Shown here piece after piece: positions 1 through 24,216 of a DNA stretch of 64,000 nt. This DNA comes from Myxococcus stipitatus (GTDB lineage Bacteria; Myxococcota; Myxococcia; Myxococcales; Myxococcaceae). The notes under the pieces are model-generated. The model saw only the letters and a list, made by a program, of their open reading frames with translations, ran no database searches and was not told where the DNA came from. The stretch spans positions 124,001 through 188,000 of the forward strand of contig NZ_JAKCFI010000005.1 of NCBI RefSeq assembly GCF_021412625.1. Direction: 5' to 3'. The position numbers and the translations under genes are program-made. Positions within the stretch are counted from its first letter, which is position 1, and each line of letters begins with the position of its first letter.

Positions 1-3000
1 GCCGATGAGCACCGTGCAGTCCTGGAAGAAGCCCGAGCCGAGCACCTCCACCACGTCGCCACCGGCCGCCAGGCCATAGCCCGGGACGACCGAAACGACC
101 TCCGGCCGCTCCTGCGACACATCCGCGCTCGTCTTGAACCGGACCCGCGCCTCCGTCTCCAGGGCCGCGCCACGCAGGTCCGCGAGCGCGGCGCCCACGC
201 GCAGCTCGTACTCCGTCCCGAGCGACAAGGGCGCGGAGGGCGTCAACACCACGTGCCCCCCTTCCGTGTCCGCGCGGACCTGCCGCCCCACGGGGACGGC
301 CTCGCCGTCCGACCGGCGAACCAGCGTCACCGCCCCCGCCGTCGCGGCATCGGGCAACGCGCTCAGCAGCACCTTCGCGACCGCGCCCGGGGGCACCACG
401 TCGCCCTCGGCGGGCTCCGTCCCACGAATCTCCAGGGTGTCCAGCGCCACGGAGGCCAGCGCTCCCGCGAGCGAAAGCTGGCGGTCGTCCGGATCGCTCA
501 GGGGCAGCTCGACCGGGGTCCCCTGCCCGTCCAGGAACAGCGTCCCCACCAGCAGGTAGTGGCCCATGAAGGCCATCGCACGGGCATCGCCCACGACGGA
601 TGCACGACCGATGCGCGACGGCGGCTCACCCACGGGGACGCGGAAGCGCTGAAGCTTCCCGCCACCCGCGGCCACATAGGCCACGCCCGCGGCGACACGC
701 GTCTGCTCCGCCGAGGCCCAGCCGCCCAGCAGCGCATCCACCACGAGCGTCCCGGCGGGAGCCGGGCTCGCGGGGACCGTCAGGTCATAGATGGCCACCT
801 GCTTCGCTCGTCCCAACGACAGGAAGGCTCGGCTCCCCTCCGCGGTGATGTGGACCGCGGGAGCCACCAGCTCCGTCGATCCCAGCTCTGCCAGGTCGCC
901 CGTGCGCGCATCGAGCACGAAGAAGCGAGCGGGGCTCTTGGCCGCACCCGACACGAGCAGCCGTGAGCCATGGAGCGCCAGTGCGCTCACGCCCCCTGGA
1001 ATGGCCCGCGCGCCCACGCGCAGCGGCCGGCGTGAAGTGTCCGACACGTCGAACACCTTGACGCCCTCGGAGTCGCCCACGAAGAGCAGCGGGCCTCCCA
1101 GGGCGATATCCGTGGCCGCACCCACGACGGAGAGCGCCTCGAGCACGTGCGCGTCCGCGACTGGCGCGACATCCACCCGCTGGACCCCCGCGAGACCCGC
1201 GGCGACGTACACCACCTCGCCCTGCTTCACCACCCGGCGGCTTCCCCCCTGCCCCGGGAAGGTCAACGTCTTGATCTGCGTGACGTGCGTGGGGTCACTG
1301 AGATTGGCGAGCAGCAGGCCGCCGCCAGGCGTCTGCCGGTTCGCCACGAGCAGGTTCCCATTGGCGTCGTGGATGTCCACCGTGGCGCCCAACGACGCGA
1401 ACGCCACGCCGTCCTCCACCACCACGTCCCGGATGGGCGGCGTATCCAGCCGGGCCACCGCGCCGGAGCCGTAGAGGAAGGAAGCCGCCAGCGTGTCCGG
1501 GGACGCGTCCATCGTCGCGGAGACATCGACGAGCCCCCCCGCGCCGACGTGCGGGGGCACGAGCACTTCCGCACGCTCGCTGCTCCGGACACGGACGTCG
1601 AAGGACTTCCCGCCGCCGAACATCACCTCGAGGCCCGGAGCGAATCCACGCCCGGTCAACGTCACCCAGACACCACCCTGCTGAGGCGCGCGATCAGGCG
1701 ACACGCTGACCAGCTTGAGCGGGTCCCGATAGACGAACCCTCCCAGCAAGCGCGCGGACAGGTGGCTCGGGTCGCGAACCTCGACCAGGGCGGCGCCTGA
1801 GAGCCGGATTCCATCTCGCATCGGAGCCGGGGGCACCACCACGGAGAGCGTTCGTCCATCCGCCCCCACCGCCAACACGTCGGCGGCCTGACCACCGACG
1901 AACACCTGGGTGCCCTCGCGGAAACCACTCCCGGTCAGCACCACGGGCGTCGCCAGGTCCGCGCGCCCCGACGACGGCGTCACCGCCGCGAGGCGCGGCT
2001 GATGGGCATCATCGGCCGCGACCTCGAAGCTCCCCAGGAACGGGGCGGCCTGCGGCCTCAGGTCGAAGGACACCAGCCCATCCACATACACCGTCACCAC
2101 GTCCCCGGCGGCGAACGGCGTCGTCGGAACGAAGATGACGGACGAGCCGCGTACCGCGTACTCCACCGAATACGTCCCGGGCACCGAAGGAGTGCTCGAG
2201 CCATCCTCATGCACGACGGAGACCTGCATCGTCTGAGCGGACAGCGACGACACCTGGACCGGCATCGTGAAATCGACCCGGACCTGCGCGCCCTGCGCCA
2301 CGAGTGAGCCGTCCTCCGGGGACATCCCCAGCGGCAGCAACTCGACGGGTGGCATGGACTGGAGGGTGCTCTCGCCCGCAGTGGCGACATAGAGCGTCCC
2401 GCCCACCCAGGAGATGCCCGACAGCCCCGCCCCCAGGTCCGTGGCCTGCACCCGCTCGGGCGCGGCCTCGTCCGTGAGGTCGAAGACGTGCAGCCGGTTT
2501 CCGGCGGTGACGTAGGCGCGGTTCGCGCGCACGACCACCCGGGAGCGAACGAGCGACTCGAAGCTCGTGAGCGTCGTGTCCACGGACACGCTCCCGCGTC
2601 GCACACCTTCGCGGGTGTAGATGGACAACGTGAGGCCGTTGCCCTGGCCCGCGACGACATTCGAAGTCAGCACATAGAAGCGCCCGGGCCCGAGGTCCAA
2701 CGCGAGCGCGTCCGCATCGAGCCCCACGGTGCTGACCTTGGGCAGCTCGGGTGACGACGCATCGAAGACCTGGACCTGTCCAGCGGCCGCCGTGACGTCC
2801 GTACTCGTCACATAGGCCAGCGAGCCCTCCAGTCGGACCCCCGTGGCGAGCCCCTGCGTCGAGACCCTGCGCACGACGAAGGGCGTTTCGGGACGCGACA
2901 CATCCACCGCCGCGAGCCCCGAGCGGTCGTTGGCGAGCAGCGCCAGCGCGCCACCCACGTCCAGGCCCCGAACAGGGTCCTGCGTCGCGAGGGTGCCGAG

Positions 3001-6000
3001 GCGAAGCGGCCGCTCCTCCAGGCGGACGTCGAAGATCTCCAGGCCCGAGGTTCCGGGAGAGGACACACCGACGTAGAGGCGATCCCCCACGAGCTTGATG
3101 TCCGAGGCCACCTTCGGCGGGAACCCCGGCAGGGCGACGGACGAGCCCACCGGCAGGTCGTACGCGAAGGTCCCGACCGCGACAGCGGCCTCGCCGGGCC
3201 GGGTCAGCTTGATGACCGCGAGCCCCGCGCCATCAGCCATCGGCGTGGTGAACTCCAGGGTCGTGAGGTCCAGGACGTCCACGTCCACGCCCTGCTGTGG
3301 CGACTGCCCGTCGTGCTCCACCGAGACCGTCGTCCCCGGCGCGATGGCTCGTCCCGCCACGGAGACGCGCACGCGCGTGCCACCCTCGACCGGGCCATGG
3401 CTCGGGGAGATCGTCGCCTTCACGCTGGCCAGCGGATCCAGCGCCAGCAGTCCCGCGGGGAAGAAGCCCTCCGGGCCCCCCTGGTCCGCGACCCACACAT
3501 CCACGGGCCCGGCTGGCAGTGCCGGCAACGTGAGCTGGAGAACCCCGCCCTCGTGTGCCACGGCAGCCGGAACGCCGCCCACGCGCGCCGCGTTCACGCC
3601 TTCGAGGCCCTGCCCGTGGACCGTCACGCGCTGGCCTCCGCCGGTCGACACCGTGGACGGCGTGAACGACGCGATGACTGGGGCCCGTGAGCCCGCTGTC
3701 GCGGTGTCGAAGGTGGTGCGCAGCGGCACCAGCAGCGCGCCGCCGCGCTGGTCGGTCACCGTGGTGTCCACCTCCAGCACGTACCGCGTGCCAGGGGCCA
3801 GGGGCACCTGGGGCTCCGCGACGATGGCGTAGTCGAGCTTCGACGCATCCGCGGTCACCGACAGCGACAGCGGCACTTCGCCCGTGGGACCTGTCAGGCG
3901 GACGGTCTCCTCGGAGACGCTCGCGGCGGCCAGGGGCCTGTTCATCCGGACCACCAGGCGCGACAACGACGGGGGCACGAGCTCCCCGCGAGCCGGCTCG
4001 TAGCCCGTCACCAACATGAACGGGAGCTCCAGCTCCGCCAGCCGCGTCCCTCCCGCCAGCATCAGCCGGTCACCCACCGGCAGGAGATCCAGGGCCCTCT
4101 CTTCGTTGCCGCCACTCAGCAGCCGGGGCTTGCGCAAGTCGGAGACGTCGACGAGCACGGCACCACCCTCGTTGGCGGCGACGAAGAGCACGTCGCCTAC
4201 CAGCCGCAGCCGCTGAGGCTGGCCCGGCGTGTTCGACAGCGACGCGTCGAATGCGATGCGCTGGATGAGCGCGGGGCTCGCCGGGTCCGAGACATCCACG
4301 AACGTCAAGCCATGCTCCGCCGAAGCCAGGATGGCCACTCCGTCCCGGACCACGACGTCCGTCAGGTTCCCGGGCTCGTTCCATTGCCCGACCACCTGGG
4401 CGTTCGCACCCGCCGACGAGTAGATGAGCAGCGTGCTCGCGGGGGCGATCGGCCCCTTCCCCGGATAGGTCGTGCGCTGGCCACCCCGCGCGCCGCCACT
4501 CTGCGAGTAGTACGGCACGGGAGGCGGAGGCTGCCCCACGTCGCACTTGTTGTACTTCACGCCCTGGTGGTTGCCCGTCACCACGAACAGGCGCCCCTCG
4601 GCCACGGTGGCGCCGTACGGCTCGAAGCCCTCGCCGCCCGAGCTCGCGACGATCAGCGGGTCCTCGGGGTTGCGCGCGTCGACGAGATAGATGGCGCCGT
4701 CGTCGCCCACCTGGTCCTCGACCGGCGGGCAGCCGGGCGGCGGACTGGTCTCGGGAGGCGTCGTGAGCGAGTTGGCGAGGACCCAGGCCCCCACGGGCGT
4801 CGGAACGACCCGCGACGCCATGAGGCTGTCTCGCGAGCTCATCAGCCGCGCGCGGCCCAGCAACGCCAGCTCCTCCCCGCCCGTTCCCACCGTTCCGCTG
4901 CCATCCAGCACGGTGAGACCACTGAGACCATTCGCGACGTAGAGCTGGCTCCCGGACACGGCGATGTCCAGCGAGTCGGGCATCACCTCCACGTCCGGCA
5001 TCGGCGTGTCCCGCGGGACGCGCCCTTCGAGGATGGCCATCAACAGGTCGACCTTGCCCGTGTTGCCGGGGTCGGCCACAACCTGCGCCGCACTGGTGGC
5101 CCGGGGGCGCCCGCGCAGTTGGACGTCCATCGCCGCCATGCGGAAGGACTGGGGAATCGTCCCCGCTCCCATGATGGGGCCGGAGAAGGGCTGCTGGAAC
5201 CTGTTGCCTGCGTGCGCCGCGCCTCCCGACGTGTAGACGTAGAGCGGCGACAACGGACTGGGGGCGAGCGCGCTCGGACGCACGGACAGCGCCCGCTCCT
5301 CGCCGAGGAACGGCAGGCCGTAGCCGACCTGGGAAGGCGCCACACTGCGCTCCACGCCATCGGGAGACACCACCATGACGGGCGCGTCACCGAACGAGCC
5401 AGGTGTCGCCGTCGCCGTGATTCGGGTGAGCGAGTGCACCGTCACGTTCGTCGCGGGGATTCCGCGAACGCGGACCTGCGTCGACCCGAGGCCATGCGCC
5501 CACTCGGGCAGGAAGCCCTCGCCAATCACCTCGACCGTGCTGCCACCTCGTGGGTTGAGGAAGCGAGGCGTGGCCGACGTCGCCACCAGCGGCAGCGTGT
5601 AGAAGTAGCCGCCCGCCCGACGCGCGCCCAACCCGCTGGAGGTGTTGACGACCACCACGTCCGCGAGCCCCGGAGCGCCCGGCGGGACCTCCACGCGAAG
5701 CCGCGTGGACGACCGCGCCAGCACCGTCGCCTGCGCGGTCCCCACGAACACCTCGGACGTCTCGTCGAAGTCCCAGCCCAGCACCTCGCTGAGCCCACCG
5801 CCCGCAACGGGCCCCACCCGGGGCTCGATCTGGCCAATCCTCGGCTGCCGCCCCGTGCCCAGCGCGGTGCGGAAGTTCACCTCGAACGGCGCGGTGAGCG
5901 CCTTCCCGTCGCGACTGACCAGCGCCTGACTGAGCGTGAGCCGCATGGCCGCGTCGGGCGGCAACATCACGGAGGGCCGGAACACAATCGTGCTCACGGC

Positions 6001-9000
6001 CTTCTCGGCGGTACCCGCCTCGAGGTCGCCGGGCACCGGGACTCCATCGGCGGTGAGCTGGAAGGCCGTCCGCGCCGAATCCGGCTCCACGGTGCTCGAC
6101 AGTGTGACGGTGATGGACTCGAGAGCCAGCCGGACGCGCTCGCCTCGCGTGACGCTGGCGCTCACCACGGACAGGTCCGTCGCGGGCCCGAAGTCAACCG
6201 ACCATCCCATGCCCGCGGTGCCTTCACGCAAGCTCACCAGCCGACCGCCTGCCGTCACCAGGGCGGCATGGGTGGTCCCGGAGCGGGTTCCCGTGACGTG
6301 GTAGAGCAGCTTCGGAGCAGCCAGGGTCGACAGGTCCACCACGGCGACCCCCGCGGCACCGGCCGCGACATAGGCGAGGCTCCCCGCGAGGCGGACATCG
6401 CTCGCGAAGCCGTGGACGTCGACGGTCGTCAGGAGGATGGGCGTCGCGGGATCGCTCACGTCCACCAGCACGAGCCCCGCGTCTCCCGCGGCCACTACGG
6501 CCACATCCCCCATCATGCGAATGCGCTGGGCATCCAGGGGCAGCTCCCCCAGCACCGCGAGGCCCCCCTCCACGGAGAGCGTCCTCAGCCGTCCGTTGCT
6601 CACGCGCCCCGTCGTCGTCCGGGTTCCCACGCCTGCTACCGCGAGCCCCTCCTGAACGGCCACGACCTGGGCCCCCGGTGTCGACGGGAAGCTCCTGATG
6701 GGGAACGGGGCATGGGAGATATCGAAGGTGTGGAAGCCCTGGCTTCCGGCGGCGGCCAGCAGCCGGTCCTCTCTCGCGTCCACGCCATAGACCGCATCCC
6801 CTGGGATCGTGCGCGTGGACAGCACCTGCGGCTCAGTGGGGTCCGAGATGTCGATCTCCACCACGGAGCCGGACACGACGTCGCCGTCCTCGTCGTAGGT
6901 GTGCACCCCGCCGACGAAGAGACGATCGCCTCCGGGGCGGCTCTCGTCCGCCGGAGGATAGGACACCGACCAGAAGTCGCCGCCCGCGACACGGCCGATG
7001 ATCCGGTCATCCTGGCCGTCGTGGTCCTCGTCGACGAGACCTGCCTGCGCCGCCGCCGGAATGGAGATGCCCTTTCCGGCATTCACTCCACGCGTGTAGA
7101 GGCCAGACAGGTCCACGATGTCGAGCCCGCGCTGTCCCACGACATAGGCGTAGTCACCAATCACGACCGCGTCGCGCAAGGCCCCCGAGAAAGCCACCGA
7201 GGCCCGCGCGGGCAAGTCGTAGGTGAACCCGTTCGCGAGCGTCTTCGCCACGCCATCCGGATTGATCACCGTCACATCCACGGCCCCCCGCTCGTGAAGC
7301 GGAGTGAGGACCTCGATCCGGTTGAGCCCCAGCACGCGGGGCTGCTCGCCCTCCTTGTCGCCGAAGAGCACGCGGACGTTCCCCGTGGGAGAGAAGCCCT
7401 TGCCCTGCACCACCACCCGCGTCCGTGCCGTCGTCGGACCGCGAGCAGGCGTCACGGCCGTCACCAACAACTCCTCCGTGTAGAGGAACGCACCCGGAAG
7501 GATCAGGCCCGCGCCAGACGGATTGCGCAGCGCCAGCGTCGCCGCACCCTCGACCCCCTTCGGGGTGCGCAGCGTCATGGAAGTGCCATCCGCGGAGACC
7601 ACCACGTTCGTCGCGGGCAGACCGTTGAACTCGACCTCCATCCCGGTCGCGGAGAAGCCGCTGCCGGTCAGGGTCACCAGCGAGTCGCCCGCGGTCGGAC
7701 CCTGTCGCGGCGAGATGGAGACGAGCGACAGCGGCACGACGTTGCGGTCGCTGGCCGTCTGGAACTCCAGCGTATAGGTCCCCGGCATCAAGGGCCCCTG
7801 TGCGCCGGACTCGGAGAGGACGCCTCGCACGCCGCTCACCTCGAGCCGATACCGAGCGGAGAGGTTCAGCTCCGCGTCCGCCGTCACGGTGAGCTCCGTC
7901 CCGGTGACGGACCTCGTCACGGGCACCTGCACTCCCGCCGAGGAACCACCGAGCCTGGTCAGCCGCACCAGGGCGGTCGGCTCGAGCGCGATGGGCATGT
8001 TGAAGGTCAGCCGGAGCGCATCCGTCGGACGGACGGCGGTGTCGCCAGGTCCAGGCGTCGCCGCCACGACCACCGGGAAGGGCAGCCGGACCACCGCGAG
8101 CGCGTCGAGGGCCTTGTTCCGCTCGGTCGTCGAGATGGTCGCGACCGCGATGTCCCCCTCGATGTCCACGTCCGACAGGCTGCGTCCCGGGTAGAGGTCG
8201 ATGGCGTCGATGCCTCGGGGCGACGTGGGCGAAGACACATCCACGAACTGCAGCCCGGCCGGGCCCCCCGTCTCGCCGATGGACGACAGGATGGCGGCGG
8301 CGATGTGCTGCGTCGGAGTGCTGGCCGTATCGACGAACACGCCCCTCGGGAGCAGCGGCGGAACCACGGCCTGGACGAACGGACGGCTCGCTGGCACCAG
8401 CGAGATGGAGCGCAGGGACCTCCAACCGGAGAAGGCATGCGTCTCACGCATCGAGACGCCTCCCAGCGCCTCGGGGAGCTCCCCGACGACGGCCATGACC
8501 GGCGACGTCAGGTCGACCAGGAGCGTCGAGACCGCGGAGGACCGGGACACCTGGACCAGCGCGTACTGCCCCGAGGACACCGCGACCCGCTCGACACTCA
8601 CCGGCCCCAGCACGCCTCGCATGAGGAACTGCGTCCGAGCCCCGATCAACATGGGGCGGTCCGGCTCCGCGATGGAGAAGACCGCCAGACCTCCAGGCCC
8701 CGCCGCCACCAGGGCGAGGTTTCCAGTCAGTGCAATGGCCCGCGCCTCACCATCGAACGGAATCGTCGCATCCAGGATCCGCGGCGCCCCCGGAGTCGAC
8801 ACATCGAACACCTGCAACGAGGGCCCGTTCTCGCCCACGACATCGATGAACGGCAGGTCAGGCGCGTTCGCCACCACGTAGGCGCGCTCGCCACGTACCG
8901 CCAGGGCGACCGGATTGTAGGGAGGAAGGATCGAGATGCCGCCTCGCACGAAGGCGTTCTCGGGTGTCGCGACATCCACGGCGGCCAGCCCGCCATACAC

Positions 9001-11010: not shown

Positions 11011-14000
11011 CATGCCAATCTCGACAGAGCGGAGCTCGGAGGTTCCCCGATTGCCGCTCACGTCCGTCGCCGCCGCCTGGAGTTGCGGGAATCTCCCCGC
11101 CGAGCCCGAGGGCACCAACCACTCGCGCCGATAGTGCCGCGTACCCAGCGGGTCCGAGGACGGCGTCTGCTCGCCTGGGAACTCCTGCCCGTCGATCAGG
11201 AACGCCCCCGCGGCGACGGTCGCGTTGTCGGTGACCGCCGCAAGCAAGGGGACCGCCGTGCCTTCCGTGACGACATCGAAGGCGACGGGGTCGACGAGTC
11301 GGACCTCGGGCGCCACGGTGTCGCGGACCGTTCCCACGCGAACTTCCTCGGACCAGGTCTCCTGGCCAGCGGAGTCCACGGCCACCGCCGACAGCCGAAG
11401 CTCGCGATTGCCACTTCCCACGTCCGGCAGGAAGCTGGCCGCGAAGTGGGTCGGCTTGCCGGCATAGCCCGCCGGGGCGTCCGCCGTGGCCACCTTGAGG
11501 CCGTCCACGTAGAAGTGCACGGCGGCGACCGGCCCCTCCGTGTCACGCGCATCCGCCTCGAGCTTCACGCGGGTGCTCTCGAAGAGGGTGCTGCCGTTGA
11601 GCGGCTTGACGATGGCGACCGTCGGCGGCCGATCCTTGGCGACGACCGCGGACTGAGGACCGCTCCAGGCCGTCTGGCCCGCGAGGTCCACGACCTGGGC
11701 ACGGAAGACCAGCGTCTGCTCGGCCTCGCTCGGGGAGGGCGTGTAGATGAACTGGAACGGCAACTGGTTGCGCCGCCCCAGCGCCACTTCCTCACCGCCC
11801 GGGCGCGTGACGAAGAACTCCACGCTCGCCACTCCCTCCAGGTCATCCTCGGCGGTCGCGACCAGCACCGAGGGATGGCCCACGACCAGCCCGGAGACCG
11901 GATTCAGCACGACGGTGGGAGGCCGGTCCCTGATCACCTTCAACGACAAGGTCGCGGACCCCGTGTTGCCGGACGTGTCCGTCACCTTCGCGACGAGGGA
12001 GAGCGGCTTGTCGGAGACGTCCGCTCCGAGCTTGGGCACGCGATAGGTGAACGCGAACGGCGCGACCGGCATGGTGACATAGGGCACACCGTCGACGGAG
12101 AACTCCGCCCGCACCACGCCCACGTTGTCATCCGCGTCCGCCTCGATTCGCAGCACCTGTCCTTCGATGATTTCGGAGTGGTTCGCGGGCGACCGGAAGC
12201 TCACGGTGGGCGCGGACGTGTCCGGGACGATGGTGACGGTGCGCTCCGCGGCCAGCGTCTCCTTGCCCGTGGTGTCCCTGGCGCGGGCCTTCAGCGTCAG
12301 CGTGCGCGGGGCCGTCCCCTTGGGCAGCGACACCCGGAAGCGGTACGGCGCGGCGGTGCCCACGAAGGACCTCGTCCCTCCTTCGGCTCCTTCCACCGTC
12401 GCCTCGACGGAGGCGACGCCCACGTCGTCCTGCGCCGCCACGACGAACGCGAAGTCGCGACCCTCGGTAATCTGCTGTCCCTGGCTCGGCTCGGCGATGG
12501 CCACGGTCGGCGGACGGTCGACGACCACCGGCAGCCGCACGACCTGACTGCGCGTCTGATGCAGGAACGAATCCCCGGCGATCGCCTCCAGTTCCAGGGC
12601 CTGGGCACCCGCGGGAACCGGAACCGAGAAGACGAAGGGCGGCGCGCGCAGGATGACGTCCATCAGCGTGCCGTTCACGCGCAGGGCCATGCTGGTAACG
12701 GCGACATCGTCATCCGCGGCCACCGTGACCGTCACCCGCGTCTGCTCCACCACGGGGCTGCCGTCCCTCGGGGAGATGATGGACACCGTGGGAGCACGGT
12801 CCCGAACGATCTCCACCATCTGGATGGCCGGCTCGTCGCTGGCATTCCCCGCGGAGTCCCGTGCTCGGACCACGATGAAGTATGGAGCCATGTCCCCTGC
12901 CCCCAGCGTGTTGAGCAGCGGGGCCTCGAACACGGCGCTCACCACAGGGGTCGCATAGGAGTAGCCCACGCCCGGGATGCCGCTCTCCGTCGGGAAGCCT
13001 CCCGCGTGGTGGACGACGGTCAGGTTTCCAAGCGTCGGCCCCACGAGGATCTCCAGGTCCTGGACGAAGACGTCGTCCATCCCCATCACCTCGACGCGCA
13101 CCGCGCTGCCCTCCACCAAGGGCATGCCCAGCGTCGGACTGAGGATGTGGGCCACGGGATCCGTGGTATCCCGCACCACGACGACGGGCTGTTCCACCAC
13201 CGTGCCATGGCCTTCCAGGTCCGTGGCCACCGCGCGGAGCGTCAGCACCGTGGATGGACGAGACGGGTCCATCGCGACGAAGCCCGGAGGCAGCTTCACC
13301 CGTCCCCGGAACTCCTTGACCCGTGCCGCGTCCCGGAACTCCTCCATCTGGAGACGCGAGATTGCGTCAGCCAGCTCCGGCGCCACGGCCCGGGGAGCGC
13401 CCGCCTCTTCACTCCCATCCGTGGGGAGCGTCTCGATGGCGCGCGCCTCCCCGCGAGACACGGTCAGCGCGGGCTGGCCATTGATGAAGAACTGGACCCG
13501 GGCAATCTCCGTGTCGTCCCCCGCCACCGCCGAGAGCACGAGCGCGATGCTGCCTTCGGCCAGGGTGGCCCCCGGCTCGGGCGTAGCAATGGCCACCACG
13601 GGCGCGGACGGACGCCGCCCCTCGATCAAGAGCTGGGTGCTCCGAGTCGCGCCCAGCGAGTCCGTCGCGGTGATTCGCAGCACACTGGGTGCCCCATCCG
13701 CCTGGAACGGAGGCGTGAAGGAGACCGCGCGGCTCCATCGACCGGCATTCGGCCCCGGAGGGACCTGCTCCGAGACCAATGTCTCGCCTCGGTACGAAAC
13801 CTCCACGCGGGCCAGCGCGACATCGTCCGTCGCGGTCACCTCGATGGAGTGAGCGATGTTCTGCAGCAGGCGCACGTACCCCGTGCGCAGCTCCAACGCG
13901 GGCACCAGGCGATAGGCGCTCGGGGCATCCTCGGGCAGCCGGTACTTCAGCTGGGACAGCGCCACCGTCGGAGCCTGATCCTCGGTGATGTCCACGAACA

Positions 14001-17000
14001 CCGGAGGCGAAGCCGTGGCATTTCCAGAGCGGTCCTCCGCCAACGCCACCAACTGCACCGGAACGCCCGCTGTCATCGTGGACAGGCTGAGCGGGAACGT
14101 CACGGTCCCGAGGTGCAGCCCCTCCCGAACACCCGAGCTGACGCCATTCACCAACAACTCCACCCGGCGGACGTCCACCTCGTCAGCCGCGTGGACTTCG
14201 ACAGTGAAGCTCGTGTCCTTCACATACGAGGCCCCCGTTCGAGGCTTGATGATGGAGACCTGGGGCCCCACCCTGTCCGCGACCACCCGGACCTGCCGCC
14301 CTTGCGCCGTGACATGCGCGGGTTCGGCCTTGTCCTTCACCACCGCGGTCAGTCGCGCCAGTTCGGGAGCCCACCCGGCGGGCATTCGGAGTCCAGAGAC
14401 CGCCACCTGCTTCTGGCTCGGACTCACGACCATCGCCCAGGGCTGCACCGCGAGGCACTCCCCTCCTGCAACCGCTCGGACCTGGAACTTGTCCGCCTCG
14501 TAGCGAACCCCGACCTCGGACACGGCGGACACGGCCCCGACGACCGAAGACGACAGCATGGCCGTGACGTCCTCGACCTGCACTCCCGCCGGAAACGAGA
14601 GGACCGCCTCGTAGGCGGGGGCATCGAACGTGACGATGCGTCGGCCACCCGGGTTGGCCGCGAGGAAGCGCCGGACATCGGCGTTGTCCTCTTGTCCAGG
14701 GGCAATCGCATACCGATAGCGGACCTCGGCCCGCAGCCCCGCCGCCGCCTCCTCGGAAGCGGAGAGCACCAGCTGGTAGGGCTTGTTCCCTAGGCGTCCC
14801 GTGGCCGGTGGTTGAACGGTCAACGCCCCGGCCTGAGCCGTCAGCTCGAGGGCGTCGGTCTCTCCGACCTTCAGCCACACATGGCTTCCCAACACGCCCC
14901 CCACCGCGCCAGGCGCTGGGATGACGAATCGCCCGCTCGGGGTGAACTGCGCGGGGGCCTTCGTCGAAGCCACCAGCCAGGCCGCCGCCACGCCGGTATC
15001 CTCTTCGACCTCGACCCGGACCTGTTGCGCCGCCTCCTCGATGACCGTGGCGTTCTCCAGAGGCTCCAGCCAGCGAACCACCGGCGCCGCGTCCTCGACG
15101 AGCTCGCACGTCAGGCTCGCATGGGTGGTCCGCGACGCGCCGTCCGTCGCCTGCGCCGTCACCGTGTACCGGCGGGGCCCCAGCGCATCGAGGGCGGGCA
15201 ACGTCACGTTCCAGCTTCGAGAGACGGAGGCCGCGGGCACGAACTGCGGGATTGGCAGGGGCTCTCCATCCGCGCTCACCGACAGCGCCTGCACCAGGCC
15301 ATCGTCGTTGGCGTCGAGATGGAGGGTCACCTTCGAGCCAGCGACACACGTCTTCGCCGAGGGCGTGCCGTCCCACCGCAAGGCCAGACGCGGCGGCTCC
15401 TCGTCCCGAGCCGCCACAACCTTGACGGAGAAGGACCGGCTGGACGTGTTCCCAGCAGGGTCGTACGCGGTCAGCGTGACGACGTAGCTCTTGTCCTGGG
15501 CCTTCCCGACCAGGCTGAGCGTTCCCTCGAAGTTCGCGAGGAAGCGGCGGCTGGTGATGATCTCCCCAGGCGCCAGTGGATTGGGGGTCCGGGTCTCCTC
15601 GAAGCGGATGTCCTTGCCTACGAGGACGTCCTCCCCCGAGCCATTCACGACCGGCTGCTCATCCAGGGTCATCGCCACGCGCGAAACCCGGACGTCGTCA
15701 CTCACCTCGACGCGAACGCCCAGGGCGCCGCCCTGGGGGACGACGACCTCCGAGCCACTGAGCGCCAGCGCCGGCGTCAGCAGCGTCGTGGTGGGAGCCT
15801 CCGTATCCGGAAGGACCTGGAGGTGGACCTCCGCCTTGCCCGTCTGCCCCGAGGTGTCACGCGCCTCGATGCCCACCGACGCGGGCGCGCCCTTGCTCAC
15901 GATGGGCGCCCGCACGGTCACGAACTGCTGACCATTGAGCAGCAACGGCGCCCCTGTCTCGGGCAGTGGCGCCACGCGGGCTCCACCCGAGAGCCCCACG
16001 AAGGCGATGATGCCGTCGTCATCCCCCAGCGTGCCCGCCACGCGCACGTCTTCGCCTTCCTTGTACGGCGTCCCCGGGGCTGGCGCGACGATGCCCACGA
16101 CCGGGGCCGCGTCCTTCACGACGGGAATCTCCAACTCCCGCTCGGCGGTGAGGTTCGAGGAATCCGTGACGACCGCACGCAGCGTCAGCGAACCTCCAGG
16201 GACTTCCGCCTCCACGGGGACCGTCCAGCGGAACACCTCGTAGAGGCCCTCCCGCACGCCCGTGGTGAGGGCTCCCAGCGAAGAGGAGCCCCGGAACAGC
16301 TCGACCTTCGCTACGGCGACATCGTCGAACGCCACGACCTCGACCTGGAGCGGACGGCCAGCGAAGACAGGCGCCCCGGGTCGCGGCGCTCGGAACGACA
16401 GCAGCGGCGCGCTCTCGTCCGCGACGATGGACAGCAAGTGGTGGGCTGTGGCGACCCGCGTCCCGTCCGAGGCACGGGCCTCCAGCACCACCTCCCTGGG
16501 AGGCCCCTCGGCCTTGAAGGAGAAGCGATAGGGCGAGACATTGACCGTCGCAACGCTCACGCCATCCGCGCGGAGCTCCACCGCGTTCACGCCGACGTCA
16601 TCCCGCGCGTCGACCTCCACCTCCACCCACGTTCCGACGGTGGCCTTCAACGGTGGAGACTTGACGAACGCCACCGTGGGCGCCGCATCCTCCTGCGGCG
16701 TCACATCCACCGAAGGCGCGGTCCCCATGTTGCCCGACAGGTCCTTCACTTGCGCCGTCAGCCTGTGGGTATGACCCAGCACGAGATTCGACGCGGGCAG
16801 CACCACATGGGAGACGAAGGAGCCCCGGATGCCCTGGTTCTCCGCGGGAGCGGAATCGACATGGATCTCCCTGCCGTCGAGGAGGATCCGCACCGTCTCC
16901 ACGCCCACGTTGTCCAGCCCCGCGACCGTCACGAGGAGGTCCTGGGTCACCGGCACCCGCGCATTGGCGCGAGGCACGACGAACGACACCGAGGGCGGAG

Positions 17001-19569
17001 TCGTATCGGGGATGACGGAGACACTCACGGACGCCCGGGTCGTCAGCCCGGAGGCGTCACGCGCCTCGGCCGTCACGGTGAGCGCGGTCGAGGCACGGAC
17101 CGTGGGCAACGGATAGGGAACGAGGAACGGCGCTGCCGTGGAGAGCCCCACTGGCTTGCCTTCCACGAACCAACGCACCTCCACGGTCCCCGGCGTGTCG
17201 TCGATCACCCGGGCGGTGAGGTCGATGCTCCTGCCGCCGAGCAGCGTGCTGCCCGCTACCGGCCCGAGGATTGCGAGCTGTGGAGCCTGGTCGGCCTTGA
17301 CCGAGACCTCCACGGCGACACGTCGGGCCTTGCCCCCGCTATCGGTCGCCACGACCTCGAGGCGCCGCAGCTTCCCCGCATCCGCGGTGGGAGGCGTCCA
17401 CCGGAGGCTGAACGCCTCCGTCCCCATGGGCGACCCACCGATGCCACCGCGCGACAACCGGAGGGAGTCGACCGTCGTCCCGTCCACGAGGAGCGCCACC
17501 TGCGTGCCGAACGCCAGCGCGTCATCGCTGACCGTTCCGCTCACCAGGAAGGGCGTCCCCGCCACGGCGTTCGCAGTGGCGCCCACGGGCTGCTGGAGGA
17601 CGACCAGCGGCGGCGAGTCCCCGACCACCCGGACCAGCAAGGTGTCGGAGCGGACAGCGGCGCCCGCGCGGTCGGTGGCCTCCACCCGCATCGCCACACT
17701 CGTCCCCTCCGTCCCTCGACGAGGCGCGAAGCTCATCTCCCAGAGGGGGACCAGGAGCACGTCGCCCGAGACCGGGTGCTTCCGTGCCTCGATACGAGGC
17801 AAGTCCACGGTCCCGGCCAGCACGTCGTCGAAGAAGAAGCGGACGCTCCGGAAGTCCTCGGTGGAGAGACCTCCCGCCATCCAGTTGCCACTGGTGACGC
17901 GGAGCACCTGCGGCAGCCCCGCGACGAGCAGCGCCCCGGGTTCGGGAGTCTCGATGACGACCGGCTGGGTGCTCGGGGCGGGCGTGCCCACGACCTTCAC
18001 CTTGACCTCGTTGCCCACGACCCGATGACCACCGCTGTCCGTCACCGCGGCGGACAGCGTCATCGTGGCGCCACCATAGGGAGGGGCCTGGATGCGCGTC
18101 GCATAGGGCGACTCCGAATCCCTCCCCGCCGGGACGCCGTTCACGAGGAACTCCACGTGCGCGATGGCGATGTCATCCGTCGCGTTGGCGTGGAGGTCGA
18201 ACGCGGTCCCCGCGGTCACCGTCGAGGGAGCCACGATCTGGACCGAGGGTGCCCCATCGAGCACCTCGACCTCCACGGAGATTGGAGCCCATCCATCCCG
18301 CACGGCGCGGATGACGGCCACCCCGGGCCGGACTCCCGTGACGCGGCCGTCTGGCCCCACGGTCGCGATGTCCGGGCGCTCGGAGGACCACTTCGTGCCC
18401 AACGCCAAGGCCGTCAAGTCCACGAGCCGCTCGTCCGACAGCACGCCCATCAACTCGAGCTGGGTCGCCCCGCCCACGCGCTCCACCTTCGGCGCGGTCG
18501 GTTCGATCCGCATCGACGAGAGCACCACGTTCGAGTCGACGATGACGTCCACCTGGGTCGTGACGCCAGCGAACGCCACCGTCACCTGCCCGGTCCCATC
18601 CTCCCGCGCCTGGACGAGCCCGTCGGGCGAGACGACGAAGGCCTCCGGATTCGACGACGCGTAGACGACGCCCTGCCGCGCGCCGCTCAGGTCCACGTCG
18701 CCGCCCAGCGCGAAATGCCCGGTGACCTTCAGCGCCATCGTGGAGCCATAGCCCCCATCGAGCAGCAGCGGGTCGGGGCTCGCGGAGATATTGACCAATG
18801 GGTCGAAGGCACGACCGCTGGTGAACTCCACCGCGGAGGTGCTGACCACCCGGCCATAGGGGTCGTGCACGGTGACATCGGCGACGACCACGCCGTCCGC
18901 CGGCACCTTCACCCCTTCAGGAAGCGCGACCACGAAGTCCACCTGGCTCGAGCCCTGGCTCAGCGGACGCCCCACCTCGCGCCGGACACCCGCGAACGCC
19001 ACCGACTCGACATCACTGAGGCTCCCATGGACGCGACGCAGGGCCTCGACGGAGGCGCCCACGAGCGACAGCTCCGCGTGCGCCACCTGGCCCTGCGCGG
19101 TGACCCGGACCTCGAGTCGATCGAGCTCGTCAACCGCGCTCACCTTGATGGAGCCCGCCGGGAGCACCGGCGGAGCGCTGGACAAGTCATAGTGCGCCAC
19201 GAGGGGCGATCCATCCTCGTCCGCGGGTGAGACCTTCACCTCGATCTTCGCGTCCGCCGGCAGCTCGCGGCGCAGCGGAACCCGCAGGTGGAACGCGGTG
19301 GCGCCCACGCGGTCCCTGTCGACGAGCACGTCGCGCACGTCCACGACCGGAGCGCCTGACGACGCCGACGTGGCCTTCACCGCCACGCGCAGCTGGGTGA
19401 CATCGCTCTCGGCGGAGAAGCCCAGGTCGAGCGCGGTGATGCCCGCGCGCATGGGCGTCAGCGGGAACACCGTCGCCACGCGCGACTGGGCCTGGGCGGC
19501 ACCTCCCGCCAACAGACCCATCACCACGACCGCGATCACGAGGATGCGCTTCGAACTTTCAAGGAGCAC
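1..19569 (-). CDS. Giant secreted Ig-like / LVIVD beta-propeller / IPT-TIG repeat protein (C-terminus outside window)
   Basis: The frame is open from a GTG at 19569 to the left edge, at least 6,523 codons; the C-terminus is not in the window. GTG is chosen because an AGGGGGAG ribosome site lies just upstream and a signal peptide follows (basic SSKR, hydrophobic ILVIAVVVMGLLAGG, cleavage after AQA). Residues about 250-435 look like two Big_2 folds, 435-2850 like some twenty bacterial Ig-like repeats (A.DDvgV..Ve..vdG pattern), and 2850 to the edge like six propeller/Big_5/TIG modules. I see no catalytic motif. Such domains are usually adhesive or structural, so a surface, matrix or predation-related adhesin is the best guess. 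It follows a PPIase gene by 44 nt. The secretion route and cell attachment cannot be judged without the C-terminus. Confidence 0.93.
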   Translation of the reverse strand, partial: MLLESSKRILVIAVVVMGLLAGGAAQAQSRVATVFPLTPMRAGITALDLGFSAESDVTQLRVAVKATSASSGAPVVDVRDVLVDRDRVGATAFHLRVPLRRELPADAKIEVKVSPADEDGSPLVAHYDLSSAPPVLPAGSIKVSAVDELDRLEVRVTAQGQVAHAELSLVGASVEALRRVHGSLSDVESVAFAGVRREVGRPLSQGSSQVDFVVALPEGVKVPADGVVVADVTVHDPYGRVVSTSAVEFTSGRAFDPLVNISASPDPLLLDGGYGSTMALKVTGHFALGGDVDLSGARQGVVYASSNPEAFVVSPDGLVQAREDGTGQVTVAFAGVTTQVDVIVDSNVVLSSMRIEPTAPKVERVGGATQLELMGVLSDERLVDLTALALGTKWSSERPDIATVGPDGRVTGVRPGVAVIRAVRDGWAPISVEVEVLDGAPSVQIVAPSTVTAGTAFDLHANATDDIAIAHVEFLVNGVPAGRDSESPYATRIQAPPYGGATMTLSAAVTDSGGHRVVGNEVKVKVVGTPAPSTQPVVIETPEPGALLVAGLPQVLRVTSGNWMAGGLSTEDFRSVRFFFDDVLAGTVDLPRIEARKHPVSGDVLLVPLWEMSFAPRRGTEGTSVAMRVEATDRAGAAVRSDTLLVRVVGDSPPLVVLQQPVGATANAVAGTPFLVSGTVSDDALAFGTQVALLVDGTTVDSLRLSRGGIGGSPMGTEAFSLRWTPPTADAGKLRRLEVVATDSGGKARRVAVEVSVKADQAPQLAILGPVAGSTLLGGRSIDLTARVIDDTPGTVEVRWFVEGKPVGLSTAAPFLVPYPLPTVRASTALTVTAEARDASGLTTRASVSVSVIPDTTPPSVSFVVPRANARVPVTQDLLVTVAGLDNVGVETVRILLDGREIHVDSAPAENQGIRGSFVSHVVLPASNLVLGHTHRLTAQVKDLSGNMGTAPSVDVTPQEDAAPTVAFVKSPPLKATVGTWVEVEVDARDDVGVNAVELRADGVSVATVNVSPYRFSFKAEGPPREVVLEARASDGTRVATAHHLLSIVADESAPLLSFRAPRPGAPVFAGRPLQVEVVAFDDVAVAKVELFRGSSSLGALTTGVREGLYEVFRWTVPVEAEVPGGSLTLRAVVTDSSNLTAERELEIPVVKDAAPVVGIVAPAPGTPYKEGEDVRVAGTLGDDDGIIAFVGLSGGARVAPLPETGAPLLLNGQQFVTVRAPIVSKGAPASVGIEARDTSGQTGKAEVHLQVLPDTEAPTTTLLTPALALSGSEVVVPQGGALGVRVEVSDDVRVSRVAMTLDEQPVVNGSGEDVLVGKDIRFEETRTPNPLAPGEIITSRRFLANFEGTLSLVGKAQDKSYVVTLTAYDPAGNTSSRSFSVKVVAARDEEPPRLALRWDGTPSAKTCVAGSKVTLHLDANDDGLVQALSVSADGEPLPIPQFVPAASVSRSWNVTLPALDALGPRRYTVTAQATDGASRTTHASLTCELVEDAAPVVRWLEPLENATVIEEAAQQVRVEVEEDTGVAAAWLVASTKAPAQFTPSGRFVIPAPGAVGGVLGSHVWLKVGETDALELTAQAGALTVQPPATGRLGNKPYQLVLSASEEAAAGLRAEVRYRYAIAPGQEDNADVRRFLAANPGGRRIVTFDAPAYEAVLSFPAGVQVEDVTAMLSSSVVGAVSAVSEVGVRYEADKFQVRAVAGGECLAVQPWAMVVSPSQKQVAVSGLRMPAGWAPELARLTAVVKDKAEPAHVTAQGRQVRVVADRVGPQVSIIKPRTGASYVKDTSFTVEVHAADEVDVRRVELLVNGVSSGVREGLHLGTVTFPLSLSTMTAGVPVQLVALAEDRSGNATASPPVFVDITEDQAPTVALSQLKYRLPEDAPSAYRLVPALELRTGYVRLLQNIAHSIEVTATDDVALARVEVSYRGETLVSEQVPPGPNAGRWSRAVSFTPPFQADGAPSVLRITATDSLGATRSTQLLIEGRRPSAPVVAIATPEPGATLAEGSIALVLSAVAGDDTEIARVQFFINGQPALTVSRGEARAIETLPTDGSEEAGAPRAVAPELADAISRLQMEEFRDAARVKEFRGRVKLPPGFVAMDPSRPSTVLTLRAVATDLEGHGTVVEQPVVVVRDTTDPVAHILSPTLGMPLVEGSAVRVEVMGMDDVFVQDLEILVGPTLGNLTVVHHAGGFPTESGIPGVGYSYATPVVSAVFEAPLLNTLGAGDMAPYFIVVRARDSAGNASDEPAIQMVEIVRDRAPTVSIISPRDGSPVVEQTRVTVTVAADDDVAVTSMALRVNGTLMDVILRAPPFVFSVPVPAGAQALELEAIAGDSFLHQTRSQVVRLPVVVDRPPTVAIAEPSQGQQITEGRDFAFVVAAQDDVGVASVEATVEGAEGGTRSFVGTAAPYRFRVSLPKGTAPRTLTLKARARDTTGKETLAAERTVTIVPDTSAPTVSFRSPANHSEIIEGQVLRIEADADDNVGVVRAEFSVDGVPYVTMPVAPFAFTYRVPKLGADVSDKPLSLVAKVTDTSGNTGSATLSLKVIRDRPPTVVLNPVSGLVVGHPSVLVATAEDDLEGVASVEFFVTRPGGEEVALGRRNQLPFQFIYTPSPSEAEQTLVFRAQVVDLAGQTAWSGPQSAVVAKDRPPTVAIVKPLNGSTLFESTRVKLEADARDTEGPVAAVHFYVDGLKVATADAPAGYAGKPTHFAASFLPDVGSGNRELRLSAVAVDSAGQETWSEEVRVGTVRDTVAPEVRLVDPVAFDVVTEGTAVPLLAAVTDNATVAAGAFLIDGQEFPGEQTPSSDPLGTRHYRREWLVPSGSAGRFPQLQAAATDVSGNRGTSELRSVEIGMAPLATFDPFPGRGTHTFLRVDARNERVVTGVTGLESGSRPHQIALTRVDGASQTFLGAMPLEAPPRAAAFLDRWVLVGTSRQVVSGAISIPPRLSMVDVVSAPFLEVGTVDLPGEDIHGLAASGRLAFIANGDVGVAVVDLGNPSSPSPMRLATRTTVGPALDVAVHEGLLLVAAGSGGLRIHDLRDPGFRELGAVAVPGEAVRVVAQGTRVYVACRDANATMAVVDVSAPSRPVIQSLLTHRAARADLVATGLSDIAVNGRLAVAVASLHDAENTPIKGLLSASVLKADGTRSTLHANLPRAGSVVIAQGGPVAQAGDAGGFVFALPRFAVTGMSPAEGAVQVPVDSPVVVEFSAAVDEASAKSENVWLREADPVLGRIVPAQVSAAGRTVVVTPASPLAVSTPYFLTVTKDVLPLQGANVQAMDESFLASFVTRATDKPVPTITAVSPGSGPIEGETRVTVTGDFFQPGAQVYFGGREGRAVVVAEGGRSLSVVTPAQQEGPVVVTVVNPDGGEGALLGGFVYLPLLQISVLEPASGSVEGGTLVELSGGGFQRGAKVTFNGVPATQVRVLAPGRLSAVTPAGAFGPADVVVENPDEKRAFAPGAYLYSQLEVASILGRDVPANGQSGPRLASGTPMAVALRNQTAWVLSAAQVHTQAKTAAELMERSVYGGLAAVDVATPENAFVRGGISILPPYNPVALAVRGERAYVVANAPDLPFIDVVGENGPSLQVFDVSTPGAPRILDATIPFDGEARAIALTGNLALVAAGPGGLAVFSIAEPDRPMLIGARTQFLMRGVLGPVSVERVAVSSGQYALVQVSRSSAVSTLLVDLTSPVMAVVGELPEALGGVSMRETHAFSGWRSLRSISLVPASRPFVQAVVPPLLPRGVFVDTASTPTQHIAAAILSSIGETGGPAGLQFVDVSSPTSPRGIDAIDLYPGRSLSDVDIEGDIAVATISTTERNKALDALAVVRLPFPVVVAATPGPGDTAVRPTDALRLTFNMPIALEPTALVRLTRLGGSSAGVQVPVTRSVTGTELTVTADAELNLSARYRLEVSGVRGVLSESGAQGPLMPGTYTLEFQTASDRNVVPLSLVSISPRQGPTAGDSLVTLTGSGFSATGMEVEFNGLPATNVVVSADGTSMTLRTPKGVEGAATLALRNPSGAGLILPGAFLYTEELLVTAVTPARGPTTARTRVVVQGKGFSPTGNVRVLFGDKEGEQPRVLGLNRIEVLTPLHERGAVDVTVINPDGVAKTLANGFTYDLPARASVAFSGALRDAVVIGDYAYVVGQRGLDIVDLSGLYTRGVNAGKGISIPAAAQAGLVDEDHDGQDDRIIGRVAGGDFWSVSYPPADESRPGGDRLFVGGVHTYDEDGDVVSGSVVEIDISDPTEPQVLSTRTIPGDAVYGVDAREDRLLAAAGSQGFHTFDISHAPFPIRSFPSTPGAQVVAVQEGLAVAGVGTRTTTGRVSNGRLRTLSVEGGLAVLGELPLDAQRIRMMGDVAVVAAGDAGLVLVDVSDPATPILLTTVDVHGFASDVRLAGSLAYVAAGAAGVAVVDLSTLAAPKLLYHVTGTRSGTTHAALVTAGGRLVSLREGTAGMGWSVDFGPATDLSVVSASVTRGERVRLALESITVTLSSTVEPDSARTAFQLTADGVPVPGDLEAGTAEKAVSTIVFRPSVMLPPDAAMRLTLSQALVSRDGKALTAPFEVNFRTALGTGRQPRIGQIEPRVGPVAGGGLSEVLGWDFDETSEVFVGTAQATVLARSSTRLRVEVPPGAPGLADVVVVNTSSGLGARRAGGYFYTLPLVATSATPRFLNPRGGSTVEVIGEGFLPEWAHGLGSTQVRVRGIPATNVTVHSLTRITATATPGSFGDAPVMVVSPDGVERSVAPSQVGYGLPFLGEERALSVRPSALAPSPLSPLYVYTSGGAAHAGNRFQQPFSGPIMGAGTIPQSFRMAAMDVQLRGRPRATSAAQVVADPGNTGKVDLLMAILEGRVPRDTPMPDVEVMPDSLDIAVSGSQLYVANGLSGLTVLDGSGTVGTGGEELALLGRARLMSSRDSLMASRVVPTPVGAWVLANSLTTPPETSPPPGCPPVEDQVGDDGAIYLVDARNPEDPLIVASSGGEGFEPYGATVAEGRLFVVTGNHQGVKYNKCDVGQPPPPVPYYSQSGGARGGQRTTYPGKGPIAPASTLLIYSSAGANAQVVGQWNEPGNLTDVVVRDGVAILASAEHGLTFVDVSDPASPALIQRIAFDASLSNTPGQPQRLRLVGDVLFVAANEGGAVLVDVSDLRKPRLLSGGNEERALDLLPVGDRLMLAGGTRLAELELPFMLVTGYEPARGELVPPSLSRLVVRMNRPLAAASVSEETVRLTGPTGEVPLSLSVTADASKLDYAIVAEPQVPLAPGTRYVLEVDTTVTDQRGGALLVPLRTTFDTATAGSRAPVIASFTPSTVSTGGGQRVTVHGQGLEGVNAARVGGVPAAVAHEGGVLQLTLPALPAGPVDVWVADQGGPEGFFPAGLLALDPLASVKATISPSHGPVEGGTRVRVSVAGRAIAPGTTVSVEHDGQSPQQGVDVDVLDLTTLEFTTPMADGAGLAVIKLTRPGEAAVAVGTFAYDLPVGSSVALPGFPPKVASDIKLVGDRLYVGVSSPGTSGLEIFDVRLEERPLRLGTLATQDPVRGLDVGGALALLANDRSGLAAVDVSRPETPFVVRRVSTQGLATGVRLEGSLAYVTSTDVTAAAGQVQVFDASSPELPKVSTVGLDADALALDLGPGRFYVLTSNVVAGQGNGLTLSIYTREGVRRGSVSVDTTLTSFESLVRSRVVVRANRAYVTAGNRLHVFDLTDEAAPERVQATDLGAGLSGISWVGGTLYVATAGESTLQSMPPVELLPLGMSPEDGSLVAQGAQVRVDFTMPVQVSSLSAQTMQVSVVHEDGSSTPSVPGTYSVEYAVRGSSVIFVPTTPFAAGDVVTVYVDGLVSFDLRPQAAPFLGSFEVAADDAHQPRLAAVTPSSGRADLATPVVLTGSGFREGTQVFVGGQAADVLAVGADGRTLSVVVPPAPMRDGIRLSGAALVEVRDPSHLSARLLGGFVYRDPLKLVSVSPDRAPQQGGVWVTLTGRGFAPGLEVMFGGGKSFDVRVRSSERAEVLVPPHVGAGGLVDVSATMDASPDTLAASFLYGSGAVARLDTPPIRDVVVEDGVAFASLGATVDIHDANGNLLVANRQTPGGGLLLANLSDPTHVTQIKTLTFPGQGGSRRVVKQGEVVYVAAGLAGVQRVDVAPVADAHVLEALSVVGAATDIALGGPLLFVGDSEGVKVFDVSDTSRRPLRVGARAIPGGVSALALHGSRLLVSGAAKSPARFFVLDARTGDLAELGSTELVAPAVHITAEGSRAFLSLGRAKQVAIYDLTVPASPAPAGTLVVDALLGGWASAEQTRVAAGVAYVAAGGGKLQRFRVPVGEPPSRIGRASVVGDARAMAFMGHYLLVGTLFLDGQGTPVELPLSDPDDRQLSLAGALASVALDTLEIRGTEPAEGDVVPPGAVAKVLLSALPDAATAGAVTLVRRSDGEAVPVGRQVRADTEGGHVVLTPSAPLSLGTEYELRVGAALADLRGAALETEARVRFKTSADVSQERPEVVSVVPGYGLAAGGDVVEVLGSGFFQDCTVLIG
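11010..18260 (-). repeat. Array of about twenty bacterial Ig-like repeats inside the giant protein
   Basis: Translation of this part of the giant gene gives a unit of roughly 100-130 residues recurring about twenty times. Each unit starts with a (A/P)P.V.i..P strand, continues with a block of the form v.v.A.DDvgVa.VefyvdG, and ends with a D..GN or similar loop before the next proline-rich start. This matches the general pattern of bacterial Ig domains of the Big_7 kind. The units are clearly diverged from one another at the sequence level, so this is an old array rather than recent tandem DNA duplication. Boundaries are approximate because they were read by eye. Confidence 0.8.
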
Positions 19570-19613: not shown

Positions 19614-20531
19614 TCAGCGCCGCGTCGACGTCCCACCGTCGGGCGAACCGCGCTCTTCCAATCTCACCGAGCCCGCCGCCCGCAGGCGCTCGAGCAGCTG
19701 GTCCAGCACCTTGCGCTGAGCGCCGGGCTTCATCTGCCCCAGCACCGCGGCGCGGACCTCTTCGAACGGAGGAACACGCGCCGGCCTGCGCTCGAGCAGG
19801 ATCAAGACCGCGGCTCCGTCCCGGGTCTCCACGACGGGCGACACGGCGCCCGGCTTCGTCAGCGCGAGGATGGCCTTCTGCTGGGCGTCGTCTCCCAGCG
19901 CGTCCCGGGTCAACAGGCCCAGCTCGCCTCCGCGCAGGCGCTCGGGGCCCTCTCCCGCGGCGGCCACCTTCTCCACCGCCTCTTTGGCGCTCAGCCGCCG
20001 GTGGAACCCTTCCGCGCGCTGTCGGGCCTGGGCCCAGACAGACCGGGAGCTTCCCGCGGGCACCGCCGCCAGGACTCGGGCCACCCGGAGGCGCTCCGGC
20101 TCCGCGAACCGATCCACGTGCGACTCATAGAAGGCACGCGCCTCGGCTTCGGACGGAGGCGCGACCTTGCGCGCCTCGGCGGCCAGCAGCGCTTCGATGG
20201 AGAGCCGCTCCTCCAGCTCCCGCACCTGCCGACGAAGATCCTCGTCCCGGGTGAACCCCTGACGCTCGGCCTCCAGGACCAGGAGACGCTTGTCCACCAA
20301 GGACCGAACAAAGGACTGACGTCCCGGACCGGTCTCGAACTTCTCGCGCAGCTGAGGCGGGAGTCGCTGGCTCTCGCGGAGCACCTGCGCCTCGGTCAAC
20401 ACGCCGCCCTCGAAGCGCGCGACAATGGCACTGCCATCCGAGGGCGTGGGAGACGGCTCCACGCGCTGCTCACACCCACCACCGAGCAGAGCGCACGCGG
20501 CGACCCACCCAGTCCACACCCATCGTGCCAT
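19614..20531 (-). CDS. Lipoprotein SurA/PpiC-like peptidyl-prolyl cis-trans isomerase
   Basis: 305 residues. The N-terminus has a hydrophobic segment ending in LLGGGC, a slightly weak lipobox, so the mature protein is probably a periplasm-facing lipoprotein. Residues about 30-130 form a SurA-N-like helical region (ARFEGGVLTEAQVLRESQRL, then a charged helix). Residues about 145-255 match a parvulin (PpiC) domain, including the GGELGLL turn and a closing ILLLERRPARVPPFEEVR-like tail. The histidine that normally opens the parvulin fold (HIL) reads RVL here, so catalysis may be weak and a chaperone role is possible. It ends 44 nt before the giant protein gene on the same strand, which suggests co-transcription and a role in folding that protein. 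The function assignment by family is firm; the client is inference. Confidence 0.85.
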   Translation of the reverse strand: MARWVWTGWVAACALLGGGCEQRVEPSPTPSDGSAIVARFEGGVLTEAQVLRESQRLPPQLREKFETGPGRQSFVRSLVDKRLLVLEAERQGFTRDEDLRRQVRELEERLSIEALLAAEARKVAPPSEAEARAFYESHVDRFAEPERLRVARVLAAVPAGSSRSVWAQARQRAEGFHRRLSAKEAVEKVAAAGEGPERLRGGELGLLTRDALGDDAQQKAILALTKPGAVSPVVETRDGAAVLILLERRPARVPPFEEVRAAVLGQMKPGAQRKVLDQLLERLRAAGSVRLEERGSPDGGTSTRR

Positions 20532-24131: not shown

Positions 24132-24216
24132 GTCCCTCCCATCCACCCCTGCTGTCCCGCGCCGGGAGGACAAAGCCTAACAGCAACCCGCGGACATCTC
24201 CCGTCCGAGTGCCTGC

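Follow-up and report, generated by a model that had tools for sequence, protein, structure and literature searches.

A 64,000-nucleotide stretch of Myxococcus stipitatus DNA (assembly GCF_021412625.1, contig NZ_JAKCFI010000005.1, positions 124,001 to 188,000; here called the window, G000:C5:124001-188000, with G000 as the host genome) opens inside G1, a gene for a giant secreted protein. G1 belongs to a cassette consisting of one or more PpiC-type parvulin lipoproteins, a secreted giant of about 10.7 thousand residues built of immunoglobulin-like (Ig-like), propeller and TIG domains, and an Rhs lipoprotein of about 5 thousand residues with a swappable C-terminal toxin region. The giant and the Rhs protein form an obligate, co-inherited pair. 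We hypothesize, with a probability of about 0.6, that myxobacteria have a polymorphic toxin system composed of two giants, of which G1 is the non-toxic partner, and that G1 serves the presentation, recognition or delivery of the Rhs toxin in the killing of kin or competitors. The pairing was observed in the genomes themselves; the delivery role is what we infer.

Starting from a GTG, the minus-strand frame at window positions 1-19569 stays open for 6,523 codons; this GTG lies just three codons after an upstream stop and has GGGGGAG immediately 5' of it. GC content by codon position (0.72/0.52/0.85) matches the coding pattern of the host genome. A first-pass annotation, made from the letters of the window, had called this frame uninterrupted and the protein at least 6,523 residues long, and both statements held when the left flank was joined. 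Left of the window another ~12.6 kb of open frame follows and ends in a stop at C5:111428, which gives 10,716 codons from stop to stop and 10,713 amino acids counted from the GTG; residues 1-6523, or 61% of the protein, are encoded in the window. The signal peptide that the annotation proposed is Sec-type by inspection, with cleavage after AQA, between MLLESSKRILVIAVVVMGLLAGGAAQA and QS. No enzyme or catalytic family was found in G1 by Pfam, in agreement with the earlier statement that a catalytic motif is missing.

Of 100 relatives, 26 carried the giant; the Rhs middle region was detected in 24 genomes, every one of them among those 26, and in the four genomes with two copies of each the giant/Rhs counts were 2/2. 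When the search was widened to a phylum sample of 195 genomes, the Rhs gene was found in 35 of 37 giant-bearing genomes and in none of the 158 giant-free ones (Fisher p ~1e-36, before phylogenetic correction, so that shared ancestry is ignored). In an out-of-sample test on genomes first met in the phylum search, Rhs occurred in 11/12 giant-bearing genomes vs. 0/21 giant-free family members. The two genes were neighbors on one strand in every locus that could be placed on a single contig (27/27). The gene order was parvulin-giant-parvulin-Rhs in most loci and parvulin-parvulin-Rhs-small open reading frame (ORF)-giant in one subclade. A separate "class B" of loci without an Rhs gene was considered and rejected, as Rhs lies upstream of the giant there. 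Trees of the giant and of the Rhs protein, compared with the G025 Rhs row left out, had 15 of 19 splits in common; label shuffles reached no more than 2, and the Mantel r was 0.865.

The host contains two full cassettes in tandem. Directly downstream of G1 lies the Rhs gene G4 (5,061 codons, C5:96396-111581), and its stop is abutted by a 242-aa ORF (C5:95671-96399). A second parvulin, the second giant G2 (11,397 codons, 49 kb left of G1 and in the same orientation), the Rhs lipoprotein G3 and, directly after G3, a 148-aa MORN_2 ORF (C5:44347-44793) follow; family matches of the two small ORFs are weak. In the related loci that were mapped, a PpiC relative either stands directly upstream of the giant or heads the operon. 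A third PpiC-like gene, 25-30% identical, is found in divergent orientation beside the first parvulin in most mapped genomes.

The giant-linked Rhs lipoproteins are 4,200-6,200 residues long and have the features of a polymorphic toxin, with a conserved body and C-terminal toxin domains that are exchanged between genomes. G4 carries what looks like a lipoprotein signal; its domains comprise Ig domains of the Glucodextran_B/Big_13 families, DUF6531, RHS repeats and an Rhs_assc_core before the C-terminus, and G3 and G4 are 64% identical as far as the C-terminal region. Mean identity in the Rhs alignment was 0.33-0.56 over most of the body and 0.47 at positions 4,501-4,650, and fell to 0.07-0.09 past ~4,800, the drop from 0.47 to 0.07 setting in beyond residue ~4,700. 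Of the C-terminal regions compared, just three pairs showed any similarity. Most of these toxin regions gave no Pfam family match; deaminase families or motifs were seen at some tips. Small ORFs follow several of the Rhs genes in the mapped loci and may be immunity genes. Judged by sequence, the locus has the make-up of an Rhs polymorphic toxin system, with immunity assigned by position only. No solved relative emerged from a profile search with the Rhs middle region; the predicted structure of that region scored 57.6 in the predicted local distance difference test (pLDDT), and fold matches from it were not used. In a Myxococcus subclade the full Rhs gene is separated from the second parvulin by a ~1,390-aa ORF (L029:2735-6898, similar in L030, L031 and L068). 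The L029 copy contains RHS repeats by Pfam, and the ORF is possibly a displaced Rhs module.

The giant is under purifying selection. G1 and G2 are 63% identical across 10,626 aligned residues, with dN/dS between ~0.24 (N-terminus) and 0.44 (residues 7331-9620), and comparison with a homolog in a sister genus gave values of the same order. Homologs in several families are single frames, mostly of 9,682-12,712 codons. The G1 frame is neither chance nor error, because a 62-63%-identical paralog and long open frames in many other genomes exist; the intact paralog and homologs also answer the annotation's own concern that a sequencing error or stop codon might split the frame. Its argument that a gene kept intact at this size has a real role agrees with these dN/dS values and intact homologs. 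The annotation had further proposed a search of other myxobacterial genomes, where the giant proved to be patchy (37 of the 195 in the phylum search). A scan of 84,980 species found relatives of the giant in myxobacteria only, although it used short conserved peptides, which distant relatives may escape. Outside the order there were weak matches to the Big_2-like stretch only, and these were left out of all giant counts.

Two imperfect copies were noted. In G017, a single-contig genome, the giant frame is broken (6,143 codons) near position 1000 of L031 (G017:C1:3890000-3909999) and the Rhs gene is intact; this may be a sequencing error or a decaying copy. G008 has a short N-terminal relic of the giant (L146, G008:C1:9096000-9112000, about 6418-6755) and no Rhs partner. 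It looks as if the entire cassette was lost there, with the relic as its scar.

Pfam matches above cut-off in G1 were to Big_7, TIG, LVIVD, Big_5 and Big_2, and the domain map was drawn with our own profiles seeded on these matches. The content predicted by the annotation, Big_2, some twenty Big_7 units, LVIVD blocks, Big_5 and TIG, was recovered, with about 23 Big_7 domains in the array. Residues 2841-7218 form seven copies of an [LVIVD propeller-Big_5-TIG-TIG] super-repeat in the profile map. The part encoded in the window, with the parvulin gene upstream, is laid out as follows.

1..19569, minus strand: giant secreted protein G1, residues 1-6523 of 10,713; continues to C5:111428
19489..19569, minus strand: Sec signal peptide, residues 1-27, GTG start with GGGGGAG upstream (by inspection)
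18250..19488, minus strand: conserved N-terminal region including the Big_2-like stretch, residues 28-440
11095..18249, minus strand: array of ~23 Big_7 Ig-like domains, residues 441-2825
9217..11049, minus strand: super-repeat 1, LVIVD propeller-Big_5-TIG-TIG, residues 2841-3451
7252..9216, minus strand: super-repeat 2, residues 3452-4106 (structure predicted)
5356..7251, minus strand: super-repeat 3, residues 4107-4738
3193..5355, minus strand: super-repeat 4, residues 4739-5459
1519..3192, minus strand: super-repeat 5, residues 5460-6017
1..1518, minus strand: super-repeat 6, residues 6018-6523 of 6018-6644, cut at the window edge
19614..20531, minus strand: PpiC-type (parvulin) peptidyl-prolyl isomerase lipoprotein, 44 nt upstream of the giant (Pfam)

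Super-repeat 7, further Ig domains and a variable tail lie outside the window. The super-repeats are followed by another Big_5, four Big_7, a stretch without domain assignment (residues 7704-8216), three Big_7, a second LVIVD region (8553-9035), five Big_7 and then the tail.

This domain plan is fixed in number and order. All eight giants compared have 14 TIG domains and, with one exception that has 10, eight Big_5 domains. Residues 1-9,620 are colinear and nearly gap-free across several families at a mean identity of ~45%. Compared one by one, the seven super-repeats match their positional counterparts in four distant homologs at 38-54% identity, but the other units at just ~26-36%, so the order is old and there is no sign of repeat homogenization. 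The giant is therefore not a freely varying repeat stalk, and the loosely repeated domains implied by the annotation were not found. Beyond this trunk the mean identity drops to ~0.12. Three kinds of tail were recognized, with ~330-aa Gly-rich repeats, with a beta-domain plus DDDGDG/Cys repeats (about ten in one genome), or with plain Ig repeats, and the kind differs between clades.

Structure prediction, a check that the annotation had suggested, was made for super-repeat 2. The AlphaFold2 model (pLDDT 85.7, predicted template-modeling score (pTM) 0.87) is nearly all beta. The top ranks in a Foldseek search with this model were plexin and MET ectodomains, in which IPT/TIG domains come after a propeller. 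Whole-chain template-modeling (TM) scores were low and the domain orientation differs. Because of these low scores, the resemblance of the model is one of build and not proof of kinship.

How such a cassette might work can be sketched from the protein families involved. In the periplasm, the parvulins would assist in folding the proline-rich beta proteins; the Rhs shell would enclose the toxin, and the lipid anchor would keep the Rhs protein at the cell surface. More conjecturally, the giant would form a very long extracellular rod with a 9,620-residue trunk, seven propeller-TIG modules and a clade-variable tail. An Ig-like domain spans about 4 nm and a propeller 5 nm, and on this basis the fully extended trunk would measure ~0.3 micrometre. 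The giant could then recognize or bridge to neighboring cells, and present or dock the Rhs toxin for delivery. Among the roles that the annotation had listed, kin recognition comes closest to the evidence; the list as a whole was too vague and missed the toxin-locus context. A fruiting-body matrix, also named there, found no support, as the gene is patchy, is absent jointly with Rhs and goes with a polymorphic toxin, not with developmental genes.

Several observations weigh against a delivery role. In G061 and G132 the giant was found without Rhs; both giants, however, extend to the edge of a contig, and the two genomes were therefore not counted as counter-examples. No surface anchor was found at the giant's C-terminus. 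The toxin calls in the host are tentative: the C-terminal region of G3 has a YwqJ-deaminase match below the Pfam cut-off, and that of G4 is called deaminase-like because it has CAE...CxxC and can be aligned, weakly (31%), with a tip of this sort in another genome. The 242-aa and 148-aa followers may be immunity proteins, as candidates by position only. Finally, ten other Rhs core genes in the host genome (1,714-2,408 codons) lack a giant partner. A giant is therefore not needed for Rhs delivery in general, and belongs to one special Rhs subfamily.

The same ten genes would suit an adhesin or matrix protein merely co-regulated with Rhs, where the giant gathers cells and the toxin acts alone, and the domain set is indeed that of adhesins. 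We regard this as improbable, given that an Rhs of this type never turned up in a giant-free genome, that copy numbers and trees of the two are in agreement, and that both are missing together. A slightly better case, though still an unlikely one, can be made for a toxin complex released for predation, in which giant and Rhs are co-secreted in the manner of Tc (toxin complex) proteins and the giant is the cell-binding subunit on prey or eukaryotes. The two-part logic of a large binding partner and an Rhs shell with a swappable C-terminus is the same, the hosts are predatory, and the giant has no lipobox. On the other hand, no SpvB, TcdB-midN or TcA family was detected in any part scanned, the apparent lipoprotein signal of Rhs argues for retention at the surface, and varied toxins with small adjacent ORFs are typical of conflict between relatives.

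Obligate pairing would equally suit a protective partner, with the giant sequestering or capping the cell's own surface Rhs toxin or acting as a decoy receptor for incoming ones. The small ORFs beside the Rhs genes already fit the usual immunity role, and the trunk of the giant is conserved where the toxin regions vary, so the giant cannot be toxin-specific; we give such a shield very little credence. That the gene is an artefact or is decaying, as the broken frame in G017 and the relic in G008 could suggest, is refuted by the two intact host copies, the many intact homologs and the dN/dS of ~0.24-0.44.

The proposed non-toxic partner of an Rhs toxin was also set beside known systems. Among the closest are Rhs4 and Rhs5 of M. 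xanthus, as described in reviews: myxobacterial surface proteins of ~4,000 aa with a signal sequence, a variable C-terminal toxin and a part in kin discrimination (PMC10433427, PMC10047993). They differ in being located on Mx-alpha prophages, and the portions of the two articles used here mention no giant partner. Bacterial Teneurin-like proteins (PDB 9ifo, 9pt5) are, in the portion of PMC13018210 used, Myxococcota lipoproteins processed by signal peptidase II (SPII) with a YD shell, a polymorphic C-terminal toxin and an adjacent immunity gene. That portion defines them by FN-plug, NHL and YD shell, and no giant partner was found in it. The Rhs partner was not assigned to this group: YD repeats are present, NHL was undetected by Pfam, and its PDB matches are Rhs proteins and not teneurins. 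The model of its middle region is too poor to exclude a hidden FN-plug. The giant itself matched 9ifo via the Big_2-like Ig stretch only.

Two further systems are like the cassette only in the way they work. Tc toxins (TcA plus TcB/TcC) combine a large partner with an Rhs shell of variable C-terminus; membership was rejected, with no TcA, SpvB or TcdB-midN domain in the parts scanned and a giant that is all Ig, TIG and propeller domains behind a Sec signal. CdiA/CdiB has a long extracellular, target-recognizing stick, a C-terminal toxin and immunity, whereas stick and toxin are separate genes in the giant/Rhs system. Two-partner secretion (TPS) of that kind was discarded too, as no haemagglutinin repeat/TPS or CdiB-type family was found in the giant, the Rhs protein or the neighbors scanned. 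By its Big_7, Big_5, TIG and LVIVD matches above the Pfam cut-off, the giant falls among bacterial Ig/TIG/LVIVD surface proteins. With giant Ig adhesins (SiiE, PMC6272769; a 7,651-aa Mobiluncus adhesin, PMC10619420) it shares thousands of surface Ig-like residues. SiiE is a substrate of type I secretion (T1SS); the giant instead carries a Sec signal at its N-terminus, contains a constant number of propeller-TIG modules and is obligately linked to Rhs. It was not classed as a T1SS adhesin, its signal peptide being Sec-type by inspection. Thermococcales VARTIG modules (PMC8416519) also pair a large Ig-domain protein with a locus organized like a polymorphic toxin system, but they are archaeal, differ in gene content and have hypervariability in their own C-terminal Ig domain.

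The large surface Rhs4/5 proteins of M. xanthus kill kin without type VI secretion (T6SS), according to the part of PMC10433427 used, and target recognition by very large myxobacterial Rhs toxins with signal peptides is stated as unknown in that of PMC10047993. The giant offers a natural and deletable candidate for this step. As a tentative proposal, to which we give clearly less than even odds, the 1.1-MDa protein with its >60 fixed-order domains, seven plexin/MET-like propeller-TIG modules and exchangeable tail could be an arm dedicated to recognition and delivery for an Rhs toxin that acts by contact; this would be a new delivery route for polymorphic toxins, distinct from T6SS, contact-dependent inhibition (CDI), outer membrane exchange and Tc. 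No earlier description of such a giant as partner of an Rhs toxin was found in the literature searched, which left most subscription journals and preprints outside, and as far as this search shows the giant is a new kind of accessory partner. It is also a rare case of a bacterial protein of >10,000 residues in which several families keep the same domain count and order, and it offers a parallel in bacteria to plexin and MET receptors with their propeller and IPT/TIG build.

Elsewhere in the window, positions 23058-24173 contain an RNA 3'-terminal phosphate cyclase gene (RTC + RTC_insert), with genes for S49 and S15 peptidases and for a sigma-54 response regulator next to it.
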